This document shows, one piece after another, positions 12,504-49,117 of a stretch of DNA of 64,000 bases. Every line of letters begins with the position of its first letter. The first letter of the stretch is position 1. The notes under the pieces were generated by a model. The model was not told the origin of the DNA. It was given only the letters and a program-made list of their open reading frames with translations, and made no database searches. A program made the translations under genes and the position numbers. Source of the DNA: Clostridiales bacterium (GTDB lineage: Bacteria > Bacillota > Clostridia > Christensenellales > DUVY01); the NCBI GenBank assembly GCA_012840805.1, contig DUVY01000038.1, positions 1 through 64,000 of the forward strand, in the 5' to 3' direction.

Positions 12504-13067
12504 ATGATATCGGCAGGCGAATTTCGCAAGGGTAGCACATTTGAGATGGACGGCAAAGTATATGTGGTGGTTGACTTTCAGCATGTAAAACCCGGCAAAG
12601 GCGCGGCTTTTGTAAGAACCAAGATAAGAAATGTCATAACAGGGCAAATTCTTGAAACTACATTCAGCCCTACTGACAAATATCCTGTCGCGGTTATCGA
12701 GCGCAAAGAAATGCAATACTCTTATAATGACGGCGATTTGTATTATTTTATGGATATGCAAACATATGAGCAACTTCCTCTTAACCGCGAACAAGTGGAA
12801 GAAGCCCTTAATTTTATTAAGGAAGAATCTATGGTTTTTATCTATTTTTACAAAGGTCAACCTTTTTCTGTTGAGCCGCCCAATTTTGTGGAGCTTGAAG
12901 TGACATTTACGGAGCCGGGCATCCAAGGCGACACAGCGAAAGCTGGCAACAAGCCCGCGACTCTTGAAACAGGCTATTCCATTATGGTGCCTTTATTTAT
13001 TAACCAAGGCGACATAATCCGCGTTGATACTCGCGACGGAACATATATAGAGCGTATTAATAAATAA
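12504..13067 (+). CDS. efp: Elongation factor P
   Basis: EF-P rescues ribosomes stalled on polyproline. It is 187 residues long with three barrel domains. The tip loop [14 protein letters not shown] carries a Lys at the usual modification site, and the C-terminal part has the [16 protein letters not shown] signature with ending [12 protein letters not shown] very strong AAGGAGG ribosome site lies 7 bases upstream. The short gap to the peptidase gene suggests one operon. Confidence 0.98.
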
Positions 13068-23484: not shown

Positions 23485-24327
23485 ATGGTTATACTTTGGG
23501 ATGGTTTTGAAAAAGATTTTAGGGAATTTGAGCAATACCAAAAACTATATTTTTTGGAGCATTTCGGATCAGATGATTTTTCTAATATAACAGGTTATAG
23601 CCTTATAGACATAGGCGGCAAACGCATTCGTCCGTTATTGTTAATAAAAATCGCGCAATGCTCTAACGCGACCGATATCGAAACCGCTTATAAATTAGGG
23701 ATTGCGCTTGAGTGCATTCATACTTATTCGCTTATTCACGATGATTTGCCGTGTATGGATAATGACAAATATAGGCGCGGTTTTTTGAGCGCTCACGCCA
23801 AATATGGCGAGGCTTTGGCGATTTTGAGCGGCGACGCTTTGCTTAATTTTGCTTATGAGACTATATTAGATAACGATTTATCCCAAACTCATATTTTAAA
23901 CGCCGCAAGGTTAATTAGCCGATTTGCCGGGAATAAGGGAATGATAAAAGGTCAAGTTTTGGATATGGATTTGACAAAGGACAAATCGCCCGACCAAAAG
24001 CAAAACATATATGACATTTATCTTAACAAAACCGCGGCGTTATTTAGAGCGGCGATTAACGCCGGCGCGATATTAGGCAATGTTAGCGATAACGAATTAA
24101 AATGTCTTGACAGCTTTGCCCAAAATTTTGGAATTTATTATCAGATATTAGACGATATAAACGATTTTGAGTCTGAAGAAGATAAATTGACATATCCTAA
24201 GATATTTGGGCTTGAACAGGCTTTGAGTATGGCGCAAGAATACAAAAAACAAGCTCAAAATTGCTTAAAAGATTTGGAAAATAAATATCATTTTTTGGAA
24301 CAGTTTTTATCTAAATTAAAATTTTAA
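23485..24327 (+). CDS. ispA: Polyprenyl (farnesyl/geranyl) diphosphate synthase
   Basis: This is a trans-prenyltransferase that condenses IPP with allylic diphosphates. The 280 residues start from ATG 23485; a TTG at 23467 inside xseB lacks support. The first Asp-rich motif is HDDLPCMDND, in the short-chain synthase form with two residues between the aspartates (FARM). The second is the QILDDINDFES region. GGKRIRPLLL and GQVLDMDL are also typical. It is the last protein gene before the OLE RNA, as in other OLE-bearing genomes. Confidence 0.96.
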   Translation: MVILWDGFEKDFREFEQYQKLYFLEHFGSDDFSNITGYSLIDIGGKRIRPLLLIKIAQCSNATDIETAYKLGIALECIHTYSLIHDDLPCMDNDKYRRGFLSAHAKYGEALAILSGDALLNFAYETILDNDLSQTHILNAARLISRFAGNKGMIKGQVLDMDLTKDKSPDQKQNIYDIYLNKTAALFRAAINAGAILGNVSDNELKCLDSFAQNFGIYYQILDDINDFESEEDKLTYPKIFGLEQALSMAQEYKKQAQNCLKDLENKYHFLEQFLSKLKF

Positions 24328-24374: not shown

Positions 24375-24403
24375 TTGAAATTAATATATTTATATGCTAT
24401 AAT
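24375..24403 (+). promoter_or_regulatory. SigA-type promoter of the OLE RNA
   Basis: TTGAAA (24375-24380) and a perfect TATAAT (24398-24403) are separated by 17 bases. Transcription would begin near 24410, just before the first base of the closing helix of the RNA. The RNA can therefore be made independently of ispA read-through. Confidence 0.8.
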
Positions 24404-24412
24404 AAAATCAGT

Positions 24413-24991
24413 TTAGAGGTGCAGTATCCTAGTCAGGATCTGTCAATCGAAGACGAAGTTAAAAGGTCGTCAGAGGCATATCGATGAAGCTTCTTGTGAT
24501 GGCTTCCGTTGCCCAAACGGGGGCTGTTGCTGGAAGATAGGATAGTGGGCGTTCTGTAACGGCATACAGAGTCCGACCCAATATCCGTTGAGGTCACCTA
24601 AGGTAGCAAAGTTAGATTTTGTTACTTTTTGTGAATTAAACCTGCTATGCGGTAGAAATGCTGTGTACAGTGTAGCCAGCCTTGAGTGTTGCGGGCGGAT
24701 TCGAGGATCTACATTTGATTAAGCTGGCCAACTTATTCAAATGATTGCCTTATGAAACCCGTGATGCAAAAGAGGATAAGATTGATAGTGAATGTTAAAG
24801 GAAAGCTTCTAGGCTGCAAACCAGGCATATTAAGGATTATAGTGTGAACTAATAGGCGATTCAGTTTTCCGTCTGGCAACAACGGAATGCGAGGTTTAAA
24901 AGGAAACTGTCTCTTCGGCAACGAGAGGTACCGCGCAGGGAAATCCTACTGAACCTTAAGTCGCAAGGTTTACTTAATATGCCACCTCTAA
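24413..24991 (+). ncRNA. ole: OLE RNA (ornate large extremophilic RNA)
   Basis: This roughly 580-base stretch has no reading frame and is visibly G/C-richer and more structured than its surroundings. TTAGAGGTG at 24413-24421 pairs with CACCTCTAA at 24983-24991, closing the whole element. Many internal stems are easy to see, such as CTTCCGTTGCCC with GGGGGC nearby, GTAACGGCATAC, and CTCTTCGGCAACGAGAG around 24911-24927. The location between ispA and an OapA-like membrane protein gene followed by dxs is exactly that of the OLE RNA of Halalkalibacterium (Bacillus) halodurans and many anaerobic Firmicutes. Known OLE RNAs are about 600 bases. They associate with the membrane through OapA and affect tolerance to cold, short alcohols and magnesium. 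Identification is by context, size and structure; I could not run a covariance model. Confidence 0.88.
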
Positions 24992-25014
24992 CAACTTAAA
25001 ATATTTCTTATATA

Positions 25015-25076
25015 GGACGGCGAAATATATGTAGCTTACACTATTTTTAGTTGAGTAGTCATATATTTCGCCGTCC
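25015..25076 (+). promoter_or_regulatory. 17-bp hairpin between OLE RNA and oapA
   Basis: The arms 25015-25031 and 25060-25076 are perfectly complementary over 17 bases and enclose a 28-base loop. There is no T-run, so simple Rho-independent termination is not indicated. It sits 23 bases after the OLE closing helix and 37 bases before oapA. It may be a processing site defining the OLE 3' end, or a barrier that sets oapA expression. Confidence 0.65.
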
Positions 25077-25113
25077 AAATAGTAATACTAAGTAAATAAA
25101 AAGGTTTTTATAA

Positions 25114-25719
25114 GTGGAAGAAGACGATAGTAACCTTAAAACCATAACGCCAAAAAAACAAAACGATATCGATCAAAGACAAAAAAAGAAAACAAAAAAA
25201 AACGGGCCAAGATATTGGTCTTTGAAAGCTTTTTTTATAACTATATTGCTTTCGGTAATATTTAATATATTGTCATCAATAGCGATGACGGGCGCCGGTA
25301 TTGCGGTAATAGTATCTGTAATAATAGTTTTGATAATTATAGGCGCTATATTTGACATGATAGGAATGGCAGTAGCGTCTTGCGATGAAAAACCTTTTTA
25401 CGCTATGGCGGCAAAAAAGGTCAAAGGCGCTAAGGTCAGTTTAAAACTAATAAAAAACAGCGATATAGTAGGAAGCGTATGCTCGGACATTATTGGCGAT
25501 ATTTGCAATATTATAAGCGGAACGGCGAGCGCGTCGCTTATACTAATAATCACCATTAATTCCGATAGTTTAATAAAATCTATTATTTCTATAGCGATCG
25601 GCGCTGTTGTGGCAGCCGTAACCGTAGGATTGAAAGCTGTATTTAAGAAATTCGCTGTAACAAAGAGCATTGAAATCGTATCAGCAGTTGGAAAAATGTT
25701 GTCGGTTTTTTCTCGCTGA
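25114..25719 (+). CDS. oapA: OLE-associated membrane protein OapA
   Basis: The 201-residue protein starts at GTG 25114. Residues 1-35 are polar with a strongly basic run (RQKKKTKK), suited to RNA contact. Predicted membrane helices lie at about 36-58, 61-82, 127-148 and 153-174. Between helices 2 and 3 is a conserved-looking segment (FDMIGMAVASCDEKPFYAMA, then KKVKGAK), followed by a C-terminal basic amphipathic tail. In known species OapA is a four-helix protein of about 21 kDa encoded directly downstream of OLE RNA that carries the RNA to the membrane. The call rests on topology plus position. dxs follows after 5 bases. Confidence 0.85.
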   Translation: MEEDDSNLKTITPKKQNDIDQRQKKKTKKNGPRYWSLKAFFITILLSVIFNILSSIAMTGAGIAVIVSVIIVLIIIGAIFDMIGMAVASCDEKPFYAMAAKKVKGAKVSLKLIKNSDIVGSVCSDIIGDICNIISGTASASLILIITINSDSLIKSIISIAIGAVVAAVTVGLKAVFKKFAVTKSIEIVSAVGKMLSVFSR

Positions 25720-25724
25720 TAAAA

Positions 25725-27572
25725 ATGGAAAAAAATATTATGCCGATAATTGATAAAATAAAAGACCCAAACGATGTAAGATTATTATCCCTGCCTCAAT
25801 TGCGTCAATTAAGCGAGGAAATCAGAAAATATTTGATTGAAACCATATCAATTACAGGCGGGCATCTTGCGTCAAATTTGGGCGTTGTCGAATTGACTTT
25901 GGCATTATATTATGTGTTTGAACCGCCCAAAGATAAATTTATTTGGGATGTGGGGCATCAAGCTTATGTTCACAAAATTTTGACAGGCCGCAAAGAGCAA
26001 TTAAATTTAATTCGCTCATTAGGCGGTATCAGCGGATTTCCAAGCATAGAAGAAAGCAAGTATGATGTTTTTAACACAGGGCACGCGAGCACCTCAATCT
26101 CGGCGGGACTTGGTTTGGCGCGCGCTAGAGACTTAAAAAATGAAGACTATAAAATCATCTCTATAATAGGCGACGGCGCATTGACCGGGGGAATGGCATT
26201 TGAGGCGCTAAATGATTTGGGCGTGTCAAAAACCAAAATGATAATAGTTCTTAACGATAACAATATGTCTATTTCACCCAATATTGGCGGCATTAATAAT
26301 TATTTGTCTAAAATAAGAGTCAGCAAAAAATACGCCGCATTAAAATTTAAAACTCAAAAAATTATCAATCAATTGCCTATTATAGGAAAACCCTTAATTG
26401 ATGTATTGGAAAAAGTAAGAAACAACCTAAAGTTCGCTCTTGTAAGCGGAAAGATGTTTGAGCAGTTTGGGCTAAAATATATTGGTCCGATAGACGGGCA
26501 TAGTTTGGAAGACTTGATAGACTTTTTGTCCCATGTAAAAAATCTTGACGAGCCTGTTTTGTTACATGTTGTTACCCAAAAAGGCAAAGGATTGCCATGC
26601 GCAGAAAAAAACCCTACCGAATATCACGGCGTAAATTCCGCTAATAACAATGGCAACGGGCATTCGTTTTCAAAGACATTGGGACAAACGCTGAGTCTTT
26701 TGGCGGATGAAAACCAATCAATTGTGGCAATTACCGCGGCAATGGCGGATGGCACAGGTCTTGAGGTTTTCAAGGACAAACATAATGACAGATTTTTTGA
26801 TGTGGCGATTTGCGAATCTCACGCTGTTACTATGGCGGCTGGTTTGGCAATTTCAGGTTTAAAACCATATGTCGCTATTTATTCTACGTTCTTGCAGCGA
26901 AGTTTTGACCAAATTTTACATGATGTATGCCTTATGAAGCTGCCTGTCACTTTTTGTATTGATAGGGCGGGCGTTGTGGGCGCGGACGGCGTCACGCATC
27001 AAGGCATATATGACTTATCTTATTTGTCCTTGATGCCTGACATTACTATAATCTCGCCCAAAGATATACAAGAGTTTAAAATGATGTTAAAATGGTCTTT
27101 GGACTATAATAAGCCCTTAGCGATAAGATATCCTAAAGACAGCGTTTTGGAGTTTGATGTACATACCCCCATTGAATACGGCAAATGGGAAATTATCAAT
27201 TCTTGCCAGTCCAATATTTATATAATAGCTACAGGCGGACGTATGTTAAAACTAGGCATTGAAACATCAAAAATATTTAAAAACCATAAAATCAATATTA
27301 TTAACGCGCGGTTTATTAAACCTCTAGATTATGTTTTTTTAGATAACTTAGCTGATAATTCTTATATTATTACTATGGAAGATAATGTTCTTCACGGCGG
27401 CTTAGGGATGTCTATAGCTAATTATTTATTAAAACGGAACAAAAAATTTAAAATAAAGCATATCGCTATGCCAGAAAAGGTTACGATTATAGGAGAAATA
27501 GAAGAAGTTTTTAAAAAACTTGGCTTAACGCCCCAAAAACTATCAAAAGAAATATCTGATTTTATCCAATAA
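25725..27572 (+). CDS. dxs: 1-deoxy-D-xylulose-5-phosphate synthase
   Basis: Dxs joins pyruvate and glyceraldehyde-3-phosphate in the first MEP step, using thiamine diphosphate. The 615 residues include GGHLASNLGVVELTLAL, WDVGHQAYVHKILTGR, the ThDP motif IGDGALTGGMAFEALND ending LNDNNMS, and the transketolase part with ESHAVTMAAGLA, DRAGVVGADG and THQG. A second ATG 15 bases on is also possible. It is the last gene of this operon, and a converging regulator gene ends 3 bases away. Confidence 0.97.
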   Translation: MEKNIMPIIDKIKDPNDVRLLSLPQLRQLSEEIRKYLIETISITGGHLASNLGVVELTLALYYVFEPPKDKFIWDVGHQAYVHKILTGRKEQLNLIRSLGGISGFPSIEESKYDVFNTGHASTSISAGLGLARARDLKNEDYKIISIIGDGALTGGMAFEALNDLGVSKTKMIIVLNDNNMSISPNIGGINNYLSKIRVSKKYAALKFKTQKIINQLPIIGKPLIDVLEKVRNNLKFALVSGKMFEQFGLKYIGPIDGHSLEDLIDFLSHVKNLDEPVLLHVVTQKGKGLPCAEKNPTEYHGVNSANNNGNGHSFSKTLGQTLSLLADENQSIVAITAAMADGTGLEVFKDKHNDRFFDVAICESHAVTMAAGLAISGLKPYVAIYSTFLQRSFDQILHDVCLMKLPVTFCIDRAGVVGADGVTHQGIYDLSYLSLMPDITIISPKDIQEFKMMLKWSLDYNKPLAIRYPKDSVLEFDVHTPIEYGKWEIINSCQSNIYIIATGGRMLKLGIETSKIFKNHKINIINARFIKPLDYVFLDNLADNSYIITMEDNVLHGGLGMSIANYLLKRNKKFKIKHIAMPEKVTIIGEIEEVFKKLGLTPQKLSKEISDFIQ

Positions 27573-37471: not shown

Positions 37472-40400
37472 ATGCACTATTTAATTTGGATAGTAATAAT
37501 CGCAATAATATCAGGTTTAATAATCAAAATAATCGCATGGCGCGGCGACCCTTACTTTGAAATAGGAGTTAATATCAATTATGAAGAACTCAAGGAAAGG
37601 GTAAGAAGTCTCTCAATTTTTCATAAACACACAAAACTAAAAATCGGGTCAATGGATATAAGCGTGATTGCTTCCAAAATCAGAAAAGCGTATAAGTTTA
37701 TAGGCCAAAAAAATCAAAAAGGTTATCAGTTATTGGAATTTGAGAGATGGTTATACGAAAATAATTATTATTTGGAAAGCGTTTTGGATGAAGCTACTAA
37801 AAAACTTCAAAATCTCCCCAAACTGCCGCATATCAACGACAGACCGCGAATTTATGAAATTATTAGCTTTATTTTACGCCATAACGGTTATATATCTAAT
37901 CATCATTTAAGCCAGTTGTTAAAAATTTATCAAGAAGAATGCTCGTTAACTTTTGATGAATGCAATAATATTAAATTGTTTTTAGATTATTGTCTTTTGG
38001 AATTTGCCGCGATAATCTCAATGAAAAGCATAACAATAAATACTAATATTTTCAAAGCATGCTCCAACCGTTACAAACGTAATCTTGAAAACAACTTAAA
38101 AAATAACAGTTTTATATACGGTATCAACCTTTGTCAAGACAGGCAAAAGATTGACCAAATAACCAGATATTGCTATAAATTAGGCTTTAGTTTTTCCGAC
38201 CGCCTTGATAGCTTTAACCGTCAAATAATCAAATATAATATTTTGATTGCCAATACAATAAACTCATTAAGAACTTTTAATGAATATGTCAATACCAAAT
38301 TTATTCTTGATATATGTCCGATTAATGAAATATTTCAAAAAGAAGAAGCTGGCGTTTATCAAAGCAGCGCTGATATCAGCAAATTATATTATTTGCAAAA
38401 ATTATCGCGAATCGCTCAAAAAAAGAATTTAAACGAACTATATCTGGCAAGGCATATTGTCGCCTTAAGTAACGCGAAAAAAAGCCATATCGCCCGAGCG
38501 CTTTTCAAAAGAGAATATAAAAGCGCCAGGGCGTTACTTTATGTTTTGAGTATAACGCTTATAGCTGTCGCCGCCAACACATTGATAAGTTGGATGTTTT
38601 TTGATAGGTTATGGCAGTCAATTTTATATTGGTTAATATCCATGCCTATTTATATTTATATATCAACATCTATAATAGATAAAATCTTGAGCATGACTGT
38701 CAAACACAAACCGCTTTTAAGATTGCATTTTTCCCAAGGCGTTCCTCAAGAATATCGCACGATGGTTGTGGTTTCTCAATTAATATGCGATAAAGCCGAG
38801 TTAGAAAAATCGATTGAAAACCTAAAAAGATTAAAAGCCGCTAATAATTATAGCAATATAAGGTTTTGTCTATTGGTGGATTTTTTGGCTTCGGATAAAG
38901 CAATGACCAAAGAAGATGAGGAACTATTGCGCTATGCCAAAAAGTTATTTTACCAAAAACTAAACCCAAATGACTATAATATTTTTTGGCGTAAAAGAAG
39001 TTATATCCCGTCCGAAAAAAAATACTTGGGCGAAGAAAGAAAAAGGGGCGCGTTTTCCAAATTAGTATCTTATTTGTGCGGCGAGAATGTTCATGATTAT
39101 TTTTGCTTAATCTTAGGGCAAACAACTTCCACAATCAAGTATTTAATAGCGCTAGACAGCGATTCTTTTACTATGCAATGTAGAGAAATCATTGAAACGA
39201 TGGCGCATCCTCAAAATTTAAAATACGACCTTATGAGTTTTGTGATTCGCGCAAATCCTATATCAAGCGTAAAAACGCCTTTTTCTTACGCGTTTGCGGG
39301 CGGCAGGGGATATGATGTGTATTCAATACAGGGCAAAAGCATCGGCTCAGATGTCTTTGACCAAGGGTTATTTTGCGGAAAATGCATTATAGACATTCAA
39401 AGATTTAACCAAAAACTCAAAAACAAATTACCTAAAAATTGGATATTAAGCCATGACATTATTGAGGGAGCGTTGCTTAACACCATAGACAGCGATGCGT
39501 TTTTATACGAAAACGCGCCCAACAACATAAAAACTTATATCTCTCGCTCAACTAGATGGACTAGGGGAGATTGGCAAAACATAATTTATCTCAAAAACAA
39601 AGTTAAAGATGAAAACAATATCAAAATAAAAAATCATGTCAATTTGCTAACCAAATGGCGCATCATAAATAATATTAATTTTAGTCTTATATATATAAGC
39701 GCGCTTTTGCTTTTGTTTTTGTCAGTTTTTTTGGGCGCTGTTCCTTTGATAACAATGGGTATAATTTTAAGCTTTGATTTTTTTCTTACTTTATATTCAT
39801 TGATTTATAATTCATTTCAAAATAGATTTACTTACGCTTTTTTGAGAGAGTCAAAGCAAGCGTTATTGCGGGCAATTATTTTTGCCGTCAGCCTTCCATA
39901 CATTTCATTTAATTTGTTAAAAGCCATATGCCAATCAGTTTATCGCATGACTATATCAAAAAAGAATTTGCTAAAATGGAATACCTTCGCGCATTCATAT
40001 AACGAATCCAAAAATTCAATGGACTTTTGGTTTAAAGAACTTTTATTGCCTTGTTTGGCGGTTATTTTGATTTACTCAAGCTTGACGCTTTGGGTACTGG
40101 GCATAAGCGCTTATTATTATAGTTTATTTAGTCTGCTGTTTTTATCTTCTATTCCCATAGCTTATTATTCATCTCGCAAACATCCAAAAACTCATAAAAT
40201 AAGCGATGACGACCAAAAAATGCTTCTTGATATCGCCCAAAAGACCTATCAATACTTTATTGATTTTGGATATAACACTCAGAATCGGCTTGTTTGCGAT
40301 AACTATCAAGAAGATTTTATAAATGACAGCGCTAAGCGCACTTCTCCAACCAATATTGGATATCAGATATTGAGCGCTGTTTGCGCTTATGATTTGAAAA

Positions 40401-43400
40401 TAATTGATTATTCAGAGCTTTATAATACCTTATCGGGAATTATAGATGTCGTAAGCAAATTAAAAAAATGGCATGGCAATTTATATAATTGGTACGATAC
40501 TCTAAGTCTAAAGATATTAAGATGCTATGTCTCAACAGTTGATAACGGAAATTTACTAGCGGCATTAATAGTGGCGCGACAGACATTAAAAAAGAAAGAT
40601 GTTTTACACACAAGAATCCAAAGATTAATAGAAAAGATGGATTTGTCAAAATTATATGACAGTAGCAAAAAACTTTTTTATATAGGCACTGACACCAAAA
40701 CATTTGACAAAATTCATTATGATCTGATGGCAAGCGAAGCTATGCTCACAAGCTTTTTAGCTGTAGCGTTAGGCAAAGTTCCCAAAGAGCATTGGAATCA
40801 TTTATCGCGAGCGCCCGTTAAATATGACGGTTATGCGTTATTTTCTTGGACCGGTGGAATGTTTGAATACTTAATGCCGTTTTTGTTCTTGAAGATATAC
40901 GAAGGGTCTATGCTGTATCAATCATGCGTTAACAGCATAAACTCTCAGATTAAGTATGCTAACGATTTAGGGTTTGATATTTGGGGCATATCAGAATCGC
41001 AGTATTTCGCGCTAGACGACCAAAAAAACTATCAATATAAGGCGTTTGGAACGCCGTATTTGGCGTTAAAAAACATGAACGACAATTTTATTATATCGCC
41101 ATATTCCTCGGCGTTAGCGTTGTTATTCGCGCCCAAAAAAGCCTTGAAAAATATCAATAGGCTAATATCTCAAGGACTTATGGGCGATTATGGCTTATAT
41201 GAATCATTGGATTTGACCCAAAGCGCGCATATAAATAAAACTTATATGGCGCATCACCTCGGTATGACATTGTGCGCGATTAATAATCTATTAAATAATG
41301 ACATTATTATAGAAAGGCTTATGTCCGTTACTGAAATCAAGGCTTTTGATTTTATACTGTTTGAACCTATGATAGATTACGCTCAAAAGAAAAAAATATA
41401 TAAGCAATTGCCCGTTTTTGGTCTGGAGCCTATAACTAAAGTCATTACCCAAAAGCCCGCCTTGCCCGCATACAACCTAATGACAAACGGACGCTATTAT
41501 CTCGCGTTGGACGACGAGGGAAACGGTTCCGCGGTATTAAATGGCATCACGCTAAATAAAGAATGCAATTTTTGTAATGGCGTCAATTTGTTTTTGGACG
41601 GTCAAGTGATTAAGCTGATGACAAATCCTCTCACGGTAATTCAAAATAGTTCTTACAGCCATTATAAATATAAACATAACAATATTACTTTTGAATTAAA
41701 AATAGCCGTTATGCAGGATTATGACGGCGAAATAAGAAGCTTGATTATCGTAAATGACGGGTCCGAAAAAGTGTCGTGTAAGGTAGCGTTTTTTATTGAG
41801 CCTGTTTTGACCTTTGATGAAAGGTATTACGCGCATCCGGTATTTAACAATATGGTAGTCAAAACAGAAAAATTGACTGACAATATAATATACGCTTATC
41901 GCAATAATGAGCAAAACCCTATTTATTTGGCGGCTTCAATATGCGAGGGCAAGGCGTTATATGAGTCCAATAGGTTTAATTTTCATTCAAGGGACGGTTT
42001 GGGATGGACCAGAATAAAAAACGAGAGAGCCGACAGCTTTGGCGAAATACTTGAGCCTGTTTTGGGCGCGATAAAAGATTTGACGTTAAGCCCAATGAGT
42101 CAAACAACGATAAATTATATTATAACGGCAAGCAAAAGTCTGGATGTAATAAAAGACGCTATATGTTCTTATTCATGCGACAAGGCGATTGATAAAGCAA
42201 TTGACACATCTACAATTTATCTTAAACAGCTTTGGACTGCATTTTCGCCTGAAAAAAATCTTATGGAAAAAATTATGGCTATGTATAGCCGCATAAAAAC
42301 ATGCGCGATAACATATGACGGCGATTATACTGACTTGCAAGACGATATAAGCCTATTATTTAAAAATGGCATATTTGCGACGCGTCCAATAATCAGCTTT
42401 TATTATAGAGACGGCAATTTAAACGAGTTATTAAAAGTAGTTGAAATTTTTAAATATTTGTCTTCCTGCGGACTTAAAATAATTTTAGTATTGATGTATT
42501 CAGAGCCTGAGATGTATATCAATCCTTTATTAGACGATATCAACACCGCGATAGACAGATTGTCATTGCGGAATATGGTATCTGAAAATAAAATTAAGAT
42601 AATTAATCTAACAAGAACGGACCAAAACTTTGTCAATATCTTAAAAAGAGTATCACAGTATTATTTTGACAGCGTTTTCAAAATTGACGACATCCAATCA
42701 ATAGCGTATCCCATAATAAAAACATCAAAAGTCAAAACTATGCCTTCACAGCCTTTAAAGGTCAAAGATTTGGATATGGAACTTGGAGTTGGCGGATTTT
42801 TGGACGATAGCGCGTATTATATTGATCTTTCAAAAGAAAATACGCCTTTGCCTTGGAGCAATATTATGGCGACCAAAAACTTTGGAACATTAATAACCGA
42901 AAAAGGCGGCGGCTATACATGGTCCAAAAACTCAAGAGAATACAAATTGACCGCATGGCAAAACGATGTGATTTTTGATAGGTGTTCGGAAGAAATTATA
43001 TTAAGAGATGAGAATACTAGAGTATGTTGGAAAATAACCAAAGACATTGAAAATCCTGATGCTCAATACGCAGTAACGCATAATTTGGGCGAAACAATTT
43101 TTGAAACATCTTATAACGGCATTATTTCTATTTGTTCGCAGTTTTTAGATATAGACAATGACGCCAAAATATTAAATATCAGCTTAAACAATAACTCTAA
43201 TACGGAAAGAGTATTAAGTCTAACAGTCAATCTAGAGATAGTGTTAGGAGTTAATAATTATGAACGCGGTGATAAGTTATATTTTAAAAAAGAGAACAAC
43301 TGGGTATTCGGATTCAACGCGTCCAATAAAGTCAGCGTATATTTAGGAACAGACCAAAATGACTTTGAATGCGCGTTTTCGTCGCGGGATTTTGAATATT

Positions 43401-45046
43401 GGAAAAACGGCGGCGATTGGATTAATTTGAGTTGTTCCCGTCCTAGCTTAGCGTTAAAAACAAAACACAAATTAGCGCCCAATCAAGCCAAAGAAATTAA
43501 TTTTTGGTTATCAGACAAAAAATACGAAGTTATTGATGCCAATGCTGTAAGAAAAAAATGCTTGGAGTATTTTAAATCTTTATCTTGCGTCAAAATAAGT
43601 ACGCCTTCAAAAGAACTAGACAAATTAATCAATAGACTTCCTTATCAAGTCTTATGCTCTAGGTTTTATGGCAGATGCGGATATTATCAAGCGGGCGGCG
43701 CTTACGGCTTTAGGGATCAATTGCAAGACTGTTTGGCTGTGTTATATATCGATCCGCAAGCCGTCAAAGAGCATATATTGCTTTGTGCGGCGCATCAATA
43801 TGAAGAAGGCGATGTCCAGCATTGGTGGCATCCCGAGCGAATAGGCACTAGAACGATAATGACAGACGACTTATTGTTTTTGCCGTTATTGGTAACGGAG
43901 TATATCAAATATACGGGCGATTTTGGAATCCTAGACGAAAAAGCGCCGTATTTGCGTTCGCCCTCGCTTGCCAAAAATGAGTATAGCCGATACGAAAATC
44001 CCGATGTTTCGCCTATAAGCGATACTATCTATATGCATTGCGTAAAAGCGCTGGAATTGGCTATTTTAAAGCGAAGCCATCGGGGATTGGCATTAATAGG
44101 CGGTGGCGATTGGAACGACGCGTTGGATAAAGTCGGACACAAAGGCGAAGGAGAGAGCGTTTGGTTGAGCATGTTTTTGTGTTATTGCCTAAACGAATTC
44201 CTGCCGCTTATTAGGTCTTCGGCGCTGATAACCGAATACAAAAATGAAATAATTGAGCTAAAAAAAGCCGTCAATAAATTTGGATGGGACGGCGAATGGT
44301 ACCGGCGCGCGTATTTTGACAATGGATACCCTTTGGGAAGTATAGAAAGCAAAGAATGTAAGATAGATATTTTGAGTCAAGCTTGGGCTGTTATATCCAA
44401 AATAGGCGATGAAGAAAGAGCAAAAACAGCGTTAAAGTCTGCCGAAGATAGACTTGTGGATTACAAATATCGAATAGTTAAGCTTATGGACCCGCCCATA
44501 AAAGAATTGCCCGCGGGATATATCAGAAATTATCCAAAAGGCGTTAGGGAAAACGGCGGTCAATACACGCACGCCGCCGTATGGTATGTATTAGCTTTGA
44601 TAAAAAGCGGTCAAAAGGAAAAGGCGTATAAGACATTAGAATTAATTAATCCTATTAGTTATTGCTTGACCAGAGAACAGGTAGAAAGATACAAAGGCGA
44701 ACCTTATGTTGTGCCCGCCGATGTTTATTCAAATGAATTGTTTTATGGGCGCGCAGGATGGACATATTACACAGGTTCAGCGGCTTGGATGTATAAAGTG
44801 ACAATAGAATATATATTAGGAATAAAACGGCGCGGGCGAAAACTAATTATCGAGCCTAATTTGCCTTCGTCTTGGGATAAGTGTGAGATTAGTTATGATT
44901 ATAACGGTAGTCAGATAAATATTACCATTTTAAACAAAGGTCTAAAGGAGCCCATTTTGAACATCGACGGTATAAAGTATCACAACATCAATTATATAAC
45001 GCTAAACAAATCTTTATCCTCAAGTCAAATAGTTGTTGAAGTGTAA
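37472..45046 (+). CDS. Cyclic beta-1,2-glucan synthase-like protein (GT84 + glucoamylase-like + GH94), 2524 residues
   Basis: This is the largest gene of the window, with no frame break. An N-terminal helix (1-23) and a soluble helical region precede two helices near 350-405. The GT84 domain runs about 415-700 (GVPQEYRTMVVVSQL, a DSDS metal site in ALDSDSFTM near 560, TRWTRGDWQ near 692). More membrane helices lie near 730-830 and 855-905. A glucoamylase-like domain runs about 915-1300 (RTSPTNIGYQILS, GLYESLDLT). Then come GH94 beta-sandwich parts (NGRYYLALDDEG near 1336, GGYTWSKNSREYKLT near 1810). The GH94 catalytic barrel carries GFRDQLQD with the likely acid Asp near 2080, HWWHPE, GGGDWNDALD near 2210 and GRAGWTYYTGSAAW near 2430. 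This is the NdvB/Cgs architecture. It probably makes and trims beta-1,2-glucan at the membrane. No exporter like NdvA is adjacent. Confidence 0.9.
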   Translation: MHYLIWIVIIAIISGLIIKIIAWRGDPYFEIGVNINYEELKERVRSLSIFHKHTKLKIGSMDISVIASKIRKAYKFIGQKNQKGYQLLEFERWLYENNYYLESVLDEATKKLQNLPKLPHINDRPRIYEIISFILRHNGYISNHHLSQLLKIYQEECSLTFDECNNIKLFLDYCLLEFAAIISMKSITINTNIFKACSNRYKRNLENNLKNNSFIYGINLCQDRQKIDQITRYCYKLGFSFSDRLDSFNRQIIKYNILIANTINSLRTFNEYVNTKFILDICPINEIFQKEEAGVYQSSADISKLYYLQKLSRIAQKKNLNELYLARHIVALSNAKKSHIARALFKREYKSARALLYVLSITLIAVAANTLISWMFFDRLWQSILYWLISMPIYIYISTSIIDKILSMTVKHKPLLRLHFSQGVPQEYRTMVVVSQLICDKAELEKSIENLKRLKAANNYSNIRFCLLVDFLASDKAMTKEDEELLRYAKKLFYQKLNPNDYNIFWRKRSYIPSEKKYLGEERKRGAFSKLVSYLCGENVHDYFCLILGQTTSTIKYLIALDSDSFTMQCREIIETMAHPQNLKYDLMSFVIRANPISSVKTPFSYAFAGGRGYDVYSIQGKSIGSDVFDQGLFCGKCIIDIQRFNQKLKNKLPKNWILSHDIIEGALLNTIDSDAFLYENAPNNIKTYISRSTRWTRGDWQNIIYLKNKVKDENNIKIKNHVNLLTKWRIINNINFSLIYISALLLLFLSVFLGAVPLITMGIILSFDFFLTLYSLIYNSFQNRFTYAFLRESKQALLRAIIFAVSLPYISFNLLKAICQSVYRMTISKKNLLKWNTFAHSYNESKNSMDFWFKELLLPCLAVILIYSSLTLWVLGISAYYYSLFSLLFLSSIPIAYYSSRKHPKTHKISDDDQKMLLDIAQKTYQYFIDFGYNTQNRLVCDNYQEDFINDSAKRTSPTNIGYQILSAVCAYDLKIIDYSELYNTLSGIIDVVSKLKKWHGNLYNWYDTLSLKILRCYVSTVDNGNLLAALIVARQTLKKKDVLHTRIQRLIEKMDLSKLYDSSKKLFYIGTDTKTFDKIHYDLMASEAMLTSFLAVALGKVPKEHWNHLSRAPVKYDGYALFSWTGGMFEYLMPFLFLKIYEGSMLYQSCVNSINSQIKYANDLGFDIWGISESQYFALDDQKNYQYKAFGTPYLALKNMNDNFIISPYSSALALLFAPKKALKNINRLISQGLMGDYGLYESLDLTQSAHINKTYMAHHLGMTLCAINNLLNNDIIIERLMSVTEIKAFDFILFEPMIDYAQKKKIYKQLPVFGLEPITKVITQKPALPAYNLMTNGRYYLALDDEGNGSAVLNGITLNKECNFCNGVNLFLDGQVIKLMTNPLTVIQNSSYSHYKYKHNNITFELKIAVMQDYDGEIRSLIIVNDGSEKVSCKVAFFIEPVLTFDERYYAHPVFNNMVVKTEKLTDNIIYAYRNNEQNPIYLAASICEGKALYESNRFNFHSRDGLGWTRIKNERADSFGEILEPVLGAIKDLTLSPMSQTTINYIITASKSLDVIKDAICSYSCDKAIDKAIDTSTIYLKQLWTAFSPEKNLMEKIMAMYSRIKTCAITYDGDYTDLQDDISLLFKNGIFATRPIISFYYRDGNLNELLKVVEIFKYLSSCGLKIILVLMYSEPEMYINPLLDDINTAIDRLSLRNMVSENKIKIINLTRTDQNFVNILKRVSQYYFDSVFKIDDIQSIAYPIIKTSKVKTMPSQPLKVKDLDMELGVGGFLDDSAYYIDLSKENTPLPWSNIMATKNFGTLITEKGGGYTWSKNSREYKLTAWQNDVIFDRCSEEIILRDENTRVCWKITKDIENPDAQYAVTHNLGETIFETSYNGIISICSQFLDIDNDAKILNISLNNNSNTERVLSLTVNLEIVLGVNNYERGDKLYFKKENNWVFGFNASNKVSVYLGTDQNDFECAFSSRDFEYWKNGGDWINLSCSRPSLALKTKHKLAPNQAKEINFWLSDKKYEVIDANAVRKKCLEYFKSLSCVKISTPSKELDKLINRLPYQVLCSRFYGRCGYYQAGGAYGFRDQLQDCLAVLYIDPQAVKEHILLCAAHQYEEGDVQHWWHPERIGTRTIMTDDLLFLPLLVTEYIKYTGDFGILDEKAPYLRSPSLAKNEYSRYENPDVSPISDTIYMHCVKALELAILKRSHRGLALIGGGDWNDALDKVGHKGEGESVWLSMFLCYCLNEFLPLIRSSALITEYKNEIIELKKAVNKFGWDGEWYRRAYFDNGYPLGSIESKECKIDILSQAWAVISKIGDEERAKTALKSAEDRLVDYKYRIVKLMDPPIKELPAGYIRNYPKGVRENGGQYTHAAVWYVLALIKSGQKEKAYKTLELINPISYCLTREQVERYKGEPYVVPADVYSNELFYGRAGWTYYTGSAAWMYKVTIEYILGIKRRGRKLIIEPNLPSSWDKCEISYDYNGSQINITILNKGLKEPILNIDGIKYHNINYITLNKSLSSSQIVVEV

Positions 45047-48867: not shown

Positions 48868-48890
48868 ATATTTCAAATATATAATAATAC

Positions 48891-49117
48891 GTGATGAAAA
48901 AGCTGTGACCAAAAAAATCTTTTTCAGAGAGACGATGTTTGGTGCGAATCGTCAAAGATATTTGGTCTTATCCACTTTTGAGCGGTAAGGCGTAATGCCT
49001 TAAGGGATGGCGTCCTTTATAAGCGCTAGCGAGGCGGTCGTTTGCGTATAACGGCAACTTGGGTGGCAACGCGGAATCCTTCCGTCCCAAATTGGTAGGG
49101 ATAGGAAGGTTTTTTTA
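48891..49117 (+). promoter_or_regulatory. T-box leader of serS, specifier TCC (Ser)
   Basis: The leader contains the T-box sequence AACTTGGGTGGCAACGCGG near 49056-49074 and a terminator stem of about 49077-49117 that ends in a T-run. Stem I pairs GACCAAA with TTTGGTC, and below it AAAAG with CTTTT. The loop between them holds TCC at 48971-48973 followed by A, a serine codon. The distal part has the GACGATG...GGTGCGAATCGTC element typical of T-boxes. Uncharged serine tRNA should allow read-through into serS. Confidence 0.93.

Follow-up and report, generated by a model that had tools for sequence, protein, structure and literature searches.

A full-length OLE RNA gene at the ispA-oapA-dxs locus of a Christensenellales genome, and related oapA genes without ole

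The ispA-ole-oapA-dxs locus

The window, the whole stretch of 64,000 nucleotides analysed here (contig DUVY01000038.1 of a Clostridiales bacterium, order Christensenellales), carries an OLE RNA gene between ispA and a predicted oapA gene that is followed by dxs. OLE is a large bacterial RNA that acts at the cell membrane together with partner proteins. The features of the locus, in window coordinates and with the evidence in brackets, are:

23485..24327, + strand, ispA, polyprenyl synthetase (PF00348, E 1.6e-45)
24375..24403, + strand, promoter-like site TTGAAA-17-TATAAT with TG extension (11/12 consensus matches)
24400..25004, + strand, OLE RNA gene, full length, given as the Rfam model extent (RF01071, 440 bits)
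24413..24421, + strand, closing helix, 5' strand, conserved core 24415-24421 (reverse complementarity, covariation)
24461..24464, + strand, AAAA within the loop of the first hairpin, counterpart of the A-rich P4 loop in the dimer contact as published (RF01071 alignment)
24725..24730, + strand, TGGCCA, self-complementary, in the apical loop of P9, counterpart of the loop-loop dimer contact as published (RF01071 alignment)
24983..24991, + strand, closing helix, 3' strand, conserved core 24983-24989 (reverse complementarity, covariation)
25015..25076, + strand, hairpin between ole and oapA with 17 uninterrupted stem pairs and no T run (folding energy)
25114..25719, + strand, predicted oapA, 201 aa, GTG start (position by OLE; sub-cut-off CNNM match)
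25725..27572, + strand, dxs (PF13292, E 4.2e-119)

The Rfam OLE covariance model matched positions 24400-25004 of the plus strand with 440 bits (cut-off 50) and an E value of 6.8e-126, and the RF01071 alignment spans all model positions (1-616), which marks the OLE as full-length. An earlier sequence-only reading had placed an OLE RNA at 24413-24991 and had proposed this very search as its check, which the call passed by a wide margin. A genome-wide search with the OLE model found a single OLE in the source genome, and the mature RNA probably extends over about 24410-24991. With a probability of about 0.96, 24400-25004 is a complete, full-length OLE RNA gene giving an RNA of about 580 nt, with OapA as its partner; OLE identity, closing helix, locus and partner genes are established here by sequence.

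The gene order, spoIIIA genes and then xseA-xseB-ispA-ole-oapA-dxs, is canonical and recurs in the genus mate G003; oapA starts 109 bp past the end of the RF01071 match, and an upstream folD-like ORF was named from its translation alone. The same reading had named ispA upstream and a membrane protein followed by dxs downstream, in agreement with the PF00348 and PF13292 matches and with a protein of 201 aa between OLE and dxs, for which the model is a helical bundle. Its description of the organism as endospore-forming also agrees with the gene content: since relatives of spoIIIAA-AG lie upstream, at 13.9-18.5 kb (E 1.4e-6 to 1.3e-79, all under the NCBI curated cut-offs), and a Spo0A relative is encoded in the source genome, the organism is likely to form spores. 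Of the six genomes of the window's family, five gave an OLE match, and in the remaining one the contig ends within OLE. The genus mate G004 was ruled out as an OLE-negative genome, its contig beginning inside the 3' end of OLE.

The novelty that had been implied for an OLE outside obvious extremophiles did not hold, as OLE was previously reported from thousands of Bacillota genomes, uncultured gut microbes among them (PMC11332333). The window OLE adds a member to a well-studied class that anaerobic Bacillota were already known to carry, and in this respect the finding is an ordinary one. Whole-length sequence and structure, gene neighbours, closing helix, palindromic P9 loop, A-rich loop and partner protein genes are common to the window RNA and to OLE (RF01071) of Halalkalibacterium halodurans, Clostridium acetobutylicum and C. 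botulinum, and nothing of substance differs in the RNA. OLE variants 1 and 2 of the TANB77 and RF39 clades (PMC11332333) belong to the same family, but they shorten or lack P7-P9 and the hairpins of the 3' domain, which the window RNA has. Our literature search found no work on OLE together with Christensenellales, and the locus contributes a complete OLE sequence, from a family of metagenome-assembled genomes that has been sampled sparsely.

A conserved closing helix

Positions 24413-24421 (TTAGAGGTG) are the exact reverse complement of 24983-24991 (CACCTCTAA). The inner seven pairs (24415-24421 with 24983-24989) were examined in 75 OLE RNAs of the same order: 97.5% of cells, where cells count sequences and not independent events, hold a standard pair, and there are 45 two-sided changes. 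In 500 partner shuffles, pairing averaged 89.6% (at most 91.2%) and two-sided changes averaged 13.5 (at most 21), and when partners were slid by 1 to 3 columns, pairing reached at most 89.4% and two-sided changes at most 11. The two outer pairs, from 24413-24414, are specific to some lineages, as they are formed in only 43 and 50 of the 75 RNAs. Thus, of the 9-bp terminal helix that had been proposed, the exact complementarity and the conservation of the inner seven pairs stand, whereas conservation does not extend to the outer two. The RF01071 model draws both RNA ends unpaired, without a closing helix, while the published OLE model puts P1 in a domain made by both RNA ends (PMC12265935); we infer that the closing helix is this P1.

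Dimer-contact loops and the P9 arm

OLE dimer contacts through an A-rich P4 loop and a P9 loop-loop interaction have been published (PMC12286853, PMC12265935), and the window RNA has counterparts of both, AAAA and TGGCCA. In 58 of the 75 aligned RNAs the predicted P9 apical loop contains a self-complementary stretch of 4 nt or more, and in 15 it does not, as judged from single-sequence folds of which some are doubtful; such a stretch appeared in 38% of shuffled P9 loops. The remaining two RNAs have lost the upper P9 arm. These belong to the window's own family (L004/L060 of genome G002 and L005/L059 of genome G001), where the P9 dimer-contact loop went with the arm and oapA was kept. Two other OLE matches, of 831 bases (L080, G034:C13:9146-9976) and 789 bases (L118, G186:C151:20250-21038), are about 200 bases longer than usual and probably carry an insert. 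Genome G194 has two OLE matches (G194:C36:9303-9738 and G194:C5:73984-74292), one short overall and one partial.

Transcription of ole

The sigma-70-type promoter-like site ends at 24403, just ahead of the closing helix, and ole transcription would probably start just downstream of 24375-24403. A site with at least 9/12 matches ending 4-14 nt before the helix was found in 44 of 74 relatives (shuffles: mean 2.9, at most 10), a suggestive order-wide excess and not a calibrated test, given that the shuffles preserve base composition only, not dinucleotides, and that the rows are related. This probable private promoter sets the window apart from the ole cluster of H. halodurans, which was reported to be polycistronic (PMC12265935); because of that report, private and shared transcription of ole may coexist. 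Downstream, 25005-25113 folds at -35.8 kcal/mol (z -7.0), and the hairpin at 25015-25076 might be a processing site. A similar hairpin is present at locus L023. A dispersed repeat was rejected as an origin of this hairpin: the only other match in the window, 12548-12564, lies inside an ORF (12504-13067).

Partner proteins

The 201-aa protein is taken as OapA mainly from its position and from its relatives, which follow OLE directly in 70 of 80 loci. A search against NCBIfam assigned it to no family. Its match to CNNM (PF01595), 21.8 bits, falls below the Pfam cut-off of 28.4, and its AlphaFold model, a helical bundle, is fairly confident (pLDDT 85.9). The best PDB matches of the model are weak, namely chains of MtCorB with E values of 0.018 and 0.020 and TM scores of 0.43-0.52, none reaching E 0.001. 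OapA shows a weak resemblance to the membrane domain of the MpfA/CorB (CNNM) Mg2+ transporters in sequence and perhaps in fold; in contrast to these transporters, OapA has 201 aa and adjoins OLE, and the Pfam scan detected neither a CBS nor a CorC domain in it. A search with the KOW model for OapB returned only L24 and NusG in the source genome, and OapB was then located by gene order as a relative between map and infA that matches PDB 7k9b (4.9e-9). An OapC relative lies ahead of rpsL and matches YbxF (2.8e-9), and a bS21 relative is encoded as well. Genes for both OapB and OapC are a common, not a universal, trait of OLE genomes.

In this organism, OLE RNA would be transcribed, probably from its own promoter, be closed by the terminal helix, dimerise through the A-rich P4 loop, the L5.1/L6.1 loops and the palindromic P9 loop, and bind, at the membrane, the OapA encoded by the adjoining gene, with relatives of OapB, OapC and bS21 encoded elsewhere in the genome. 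Dimerisation, membrane location and a role in metal-ion and stress physiology are transferred here from work on Clostridium and H. halodurans.

A different reading would make the element part of the oapA-dxs mRNA, as a long leader with structure, or a spacer that is not translated, with a role in cis only. Its place directly upstream of oapA would suit such a leader, as would the polycistronic cluster reported for H. halodurans (PMC12265935), and the terminator scan called no intrinsic terminator between ole and oapA. However, the element matches the whole model of a family that is known to be a discrete RNA, its closing helix is conserved, and genomes of families f14 and f30 lack oapA within 1.5 kb downstream of OLE, with OapA, where found, on another contig; we consider a purely cis-acting leader very improbable. 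Decay of an OLE gene that has lost its function might be read from the several non-standard pairs that P8 and the upper P9 show relative to the Rfam structure. Yet the conserved loops and the closing helix are intact, the promoter-like site is present, oapA is intact and OLE is retained across the family, and we give decay even less credence than the leader. A complete, full-length OLE RNA gene is the reading that we retain.

OLE, OapA and CNNM proteins across the order

In a census of 200 genomes of the same order, OLE was present in 100 and OapA in 124, and 114 had a CNNM match at E 1e-8. Weak CNNM matches in two genomes (G069, G170) were taken as OapA itself and excluded before tabulation. 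OapA was found in 98 of the 100 OLE-bearing genomes. Of the genomes with OLE, 29 of 100 had a CNNM protein, compared with 83 of the 100 lacking OLE (p 8e-15 by Fisher's test, uncorrected for kinship), which repeats the published anticorrelation (PMC11332333). No MpfA or other CNNM protein besides OapA was found in the source genome; this absence is provisional, as the assembly is 94% complete, and the genus mate G004 carries a CNNM protein (MpfA). We infer that OLE and OapA may jointly do a job that other bacteria assign to MpfA.

oapA genes without ole

At six loci of family f6 and two of family f8, xseA, ispA, oapA and dxs follow each other in order with no OLE between them, and in genome G136 (family f24) xseA, ispA and oapA are in order with OLE missing; G074, of the same genus as genome G136, carries OLE. 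In these nine loci (L138-L144, L156, L157) no N letters were found. The ispA-oapA gap, from ORF tables with the first start codon, measures 33 bp in L138, 91 in L143, 66 in L157 and 39 in L141; the remaining ole-free loci were placed by tblastn only. No divergent OLE was detected beside ole-free oapA genes in 19 loci at E 0.01 with lax filters, and none elsewhere in the genomes with ole-free loci (f6, f8, G136, f28) at E 0.1. In f28 (L145-L152), an oapA relative stands without OLE, ispA or dxs adjoining, and G055 and G137 hold both an f28-type oapA and an OLE-linked copy. An L20-leader match under the Rfam gathering score lies near four f28 loci.

In 70 OLE-linked OapAs, the residues conserved at 80% or more include P94 (96%) and M98 (97%). 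Neither occurs in any of the 16 proteins of f6, f8 and f28, a set that includes L152, the second copy of the OLE-bearing genome G055; as both residues were chosen after the alignment had been seen, this contrast gives a lead rather than a test. D81, D125, G128, D129, G136, K174 and K178 are unchanged in the 16 proteins, and the DxxxD core is intact. The OapA of genome G136 keeps P94 and M98, and this genome appears to have lost ole recently. On the OapA tree, the ole-free label has to change three times; since the well-supported branches force only one change, independent losses of ole are likely, not proven. This post hoc comparison of metagenome-assembled genomes suggests that P94 and M98 mark an RNA-coupling loop of OapA. 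The fuller proposal, in which OapA and OLE are separable, ole was lost repeatedly from between ispA and oapA while oapA was kept, and the P94/M98 loop then decayed because its job was RNA coupling, is tentative, with slightly less than an even chance of being right.

It was suggested that ole and oapA perhaps never occur apart (PMC11332333), and lineages in which the ole site still has oapA but no ole argue against this suggestion. These oapA genes are the part of the analysis that a specialist may not expect: the loci name OapA residues whose mutation would probe the coupling of OapA to RNA, and relatives that retained the partner protein after loss of the RNA could help to reveal the role of OLE.

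Elsewhere in the window, a T-box leader (RF00230) matches at 48885-49092 with 102.6 bits versus 93, and an ORF of 2,524 aa spans 37472-45046.
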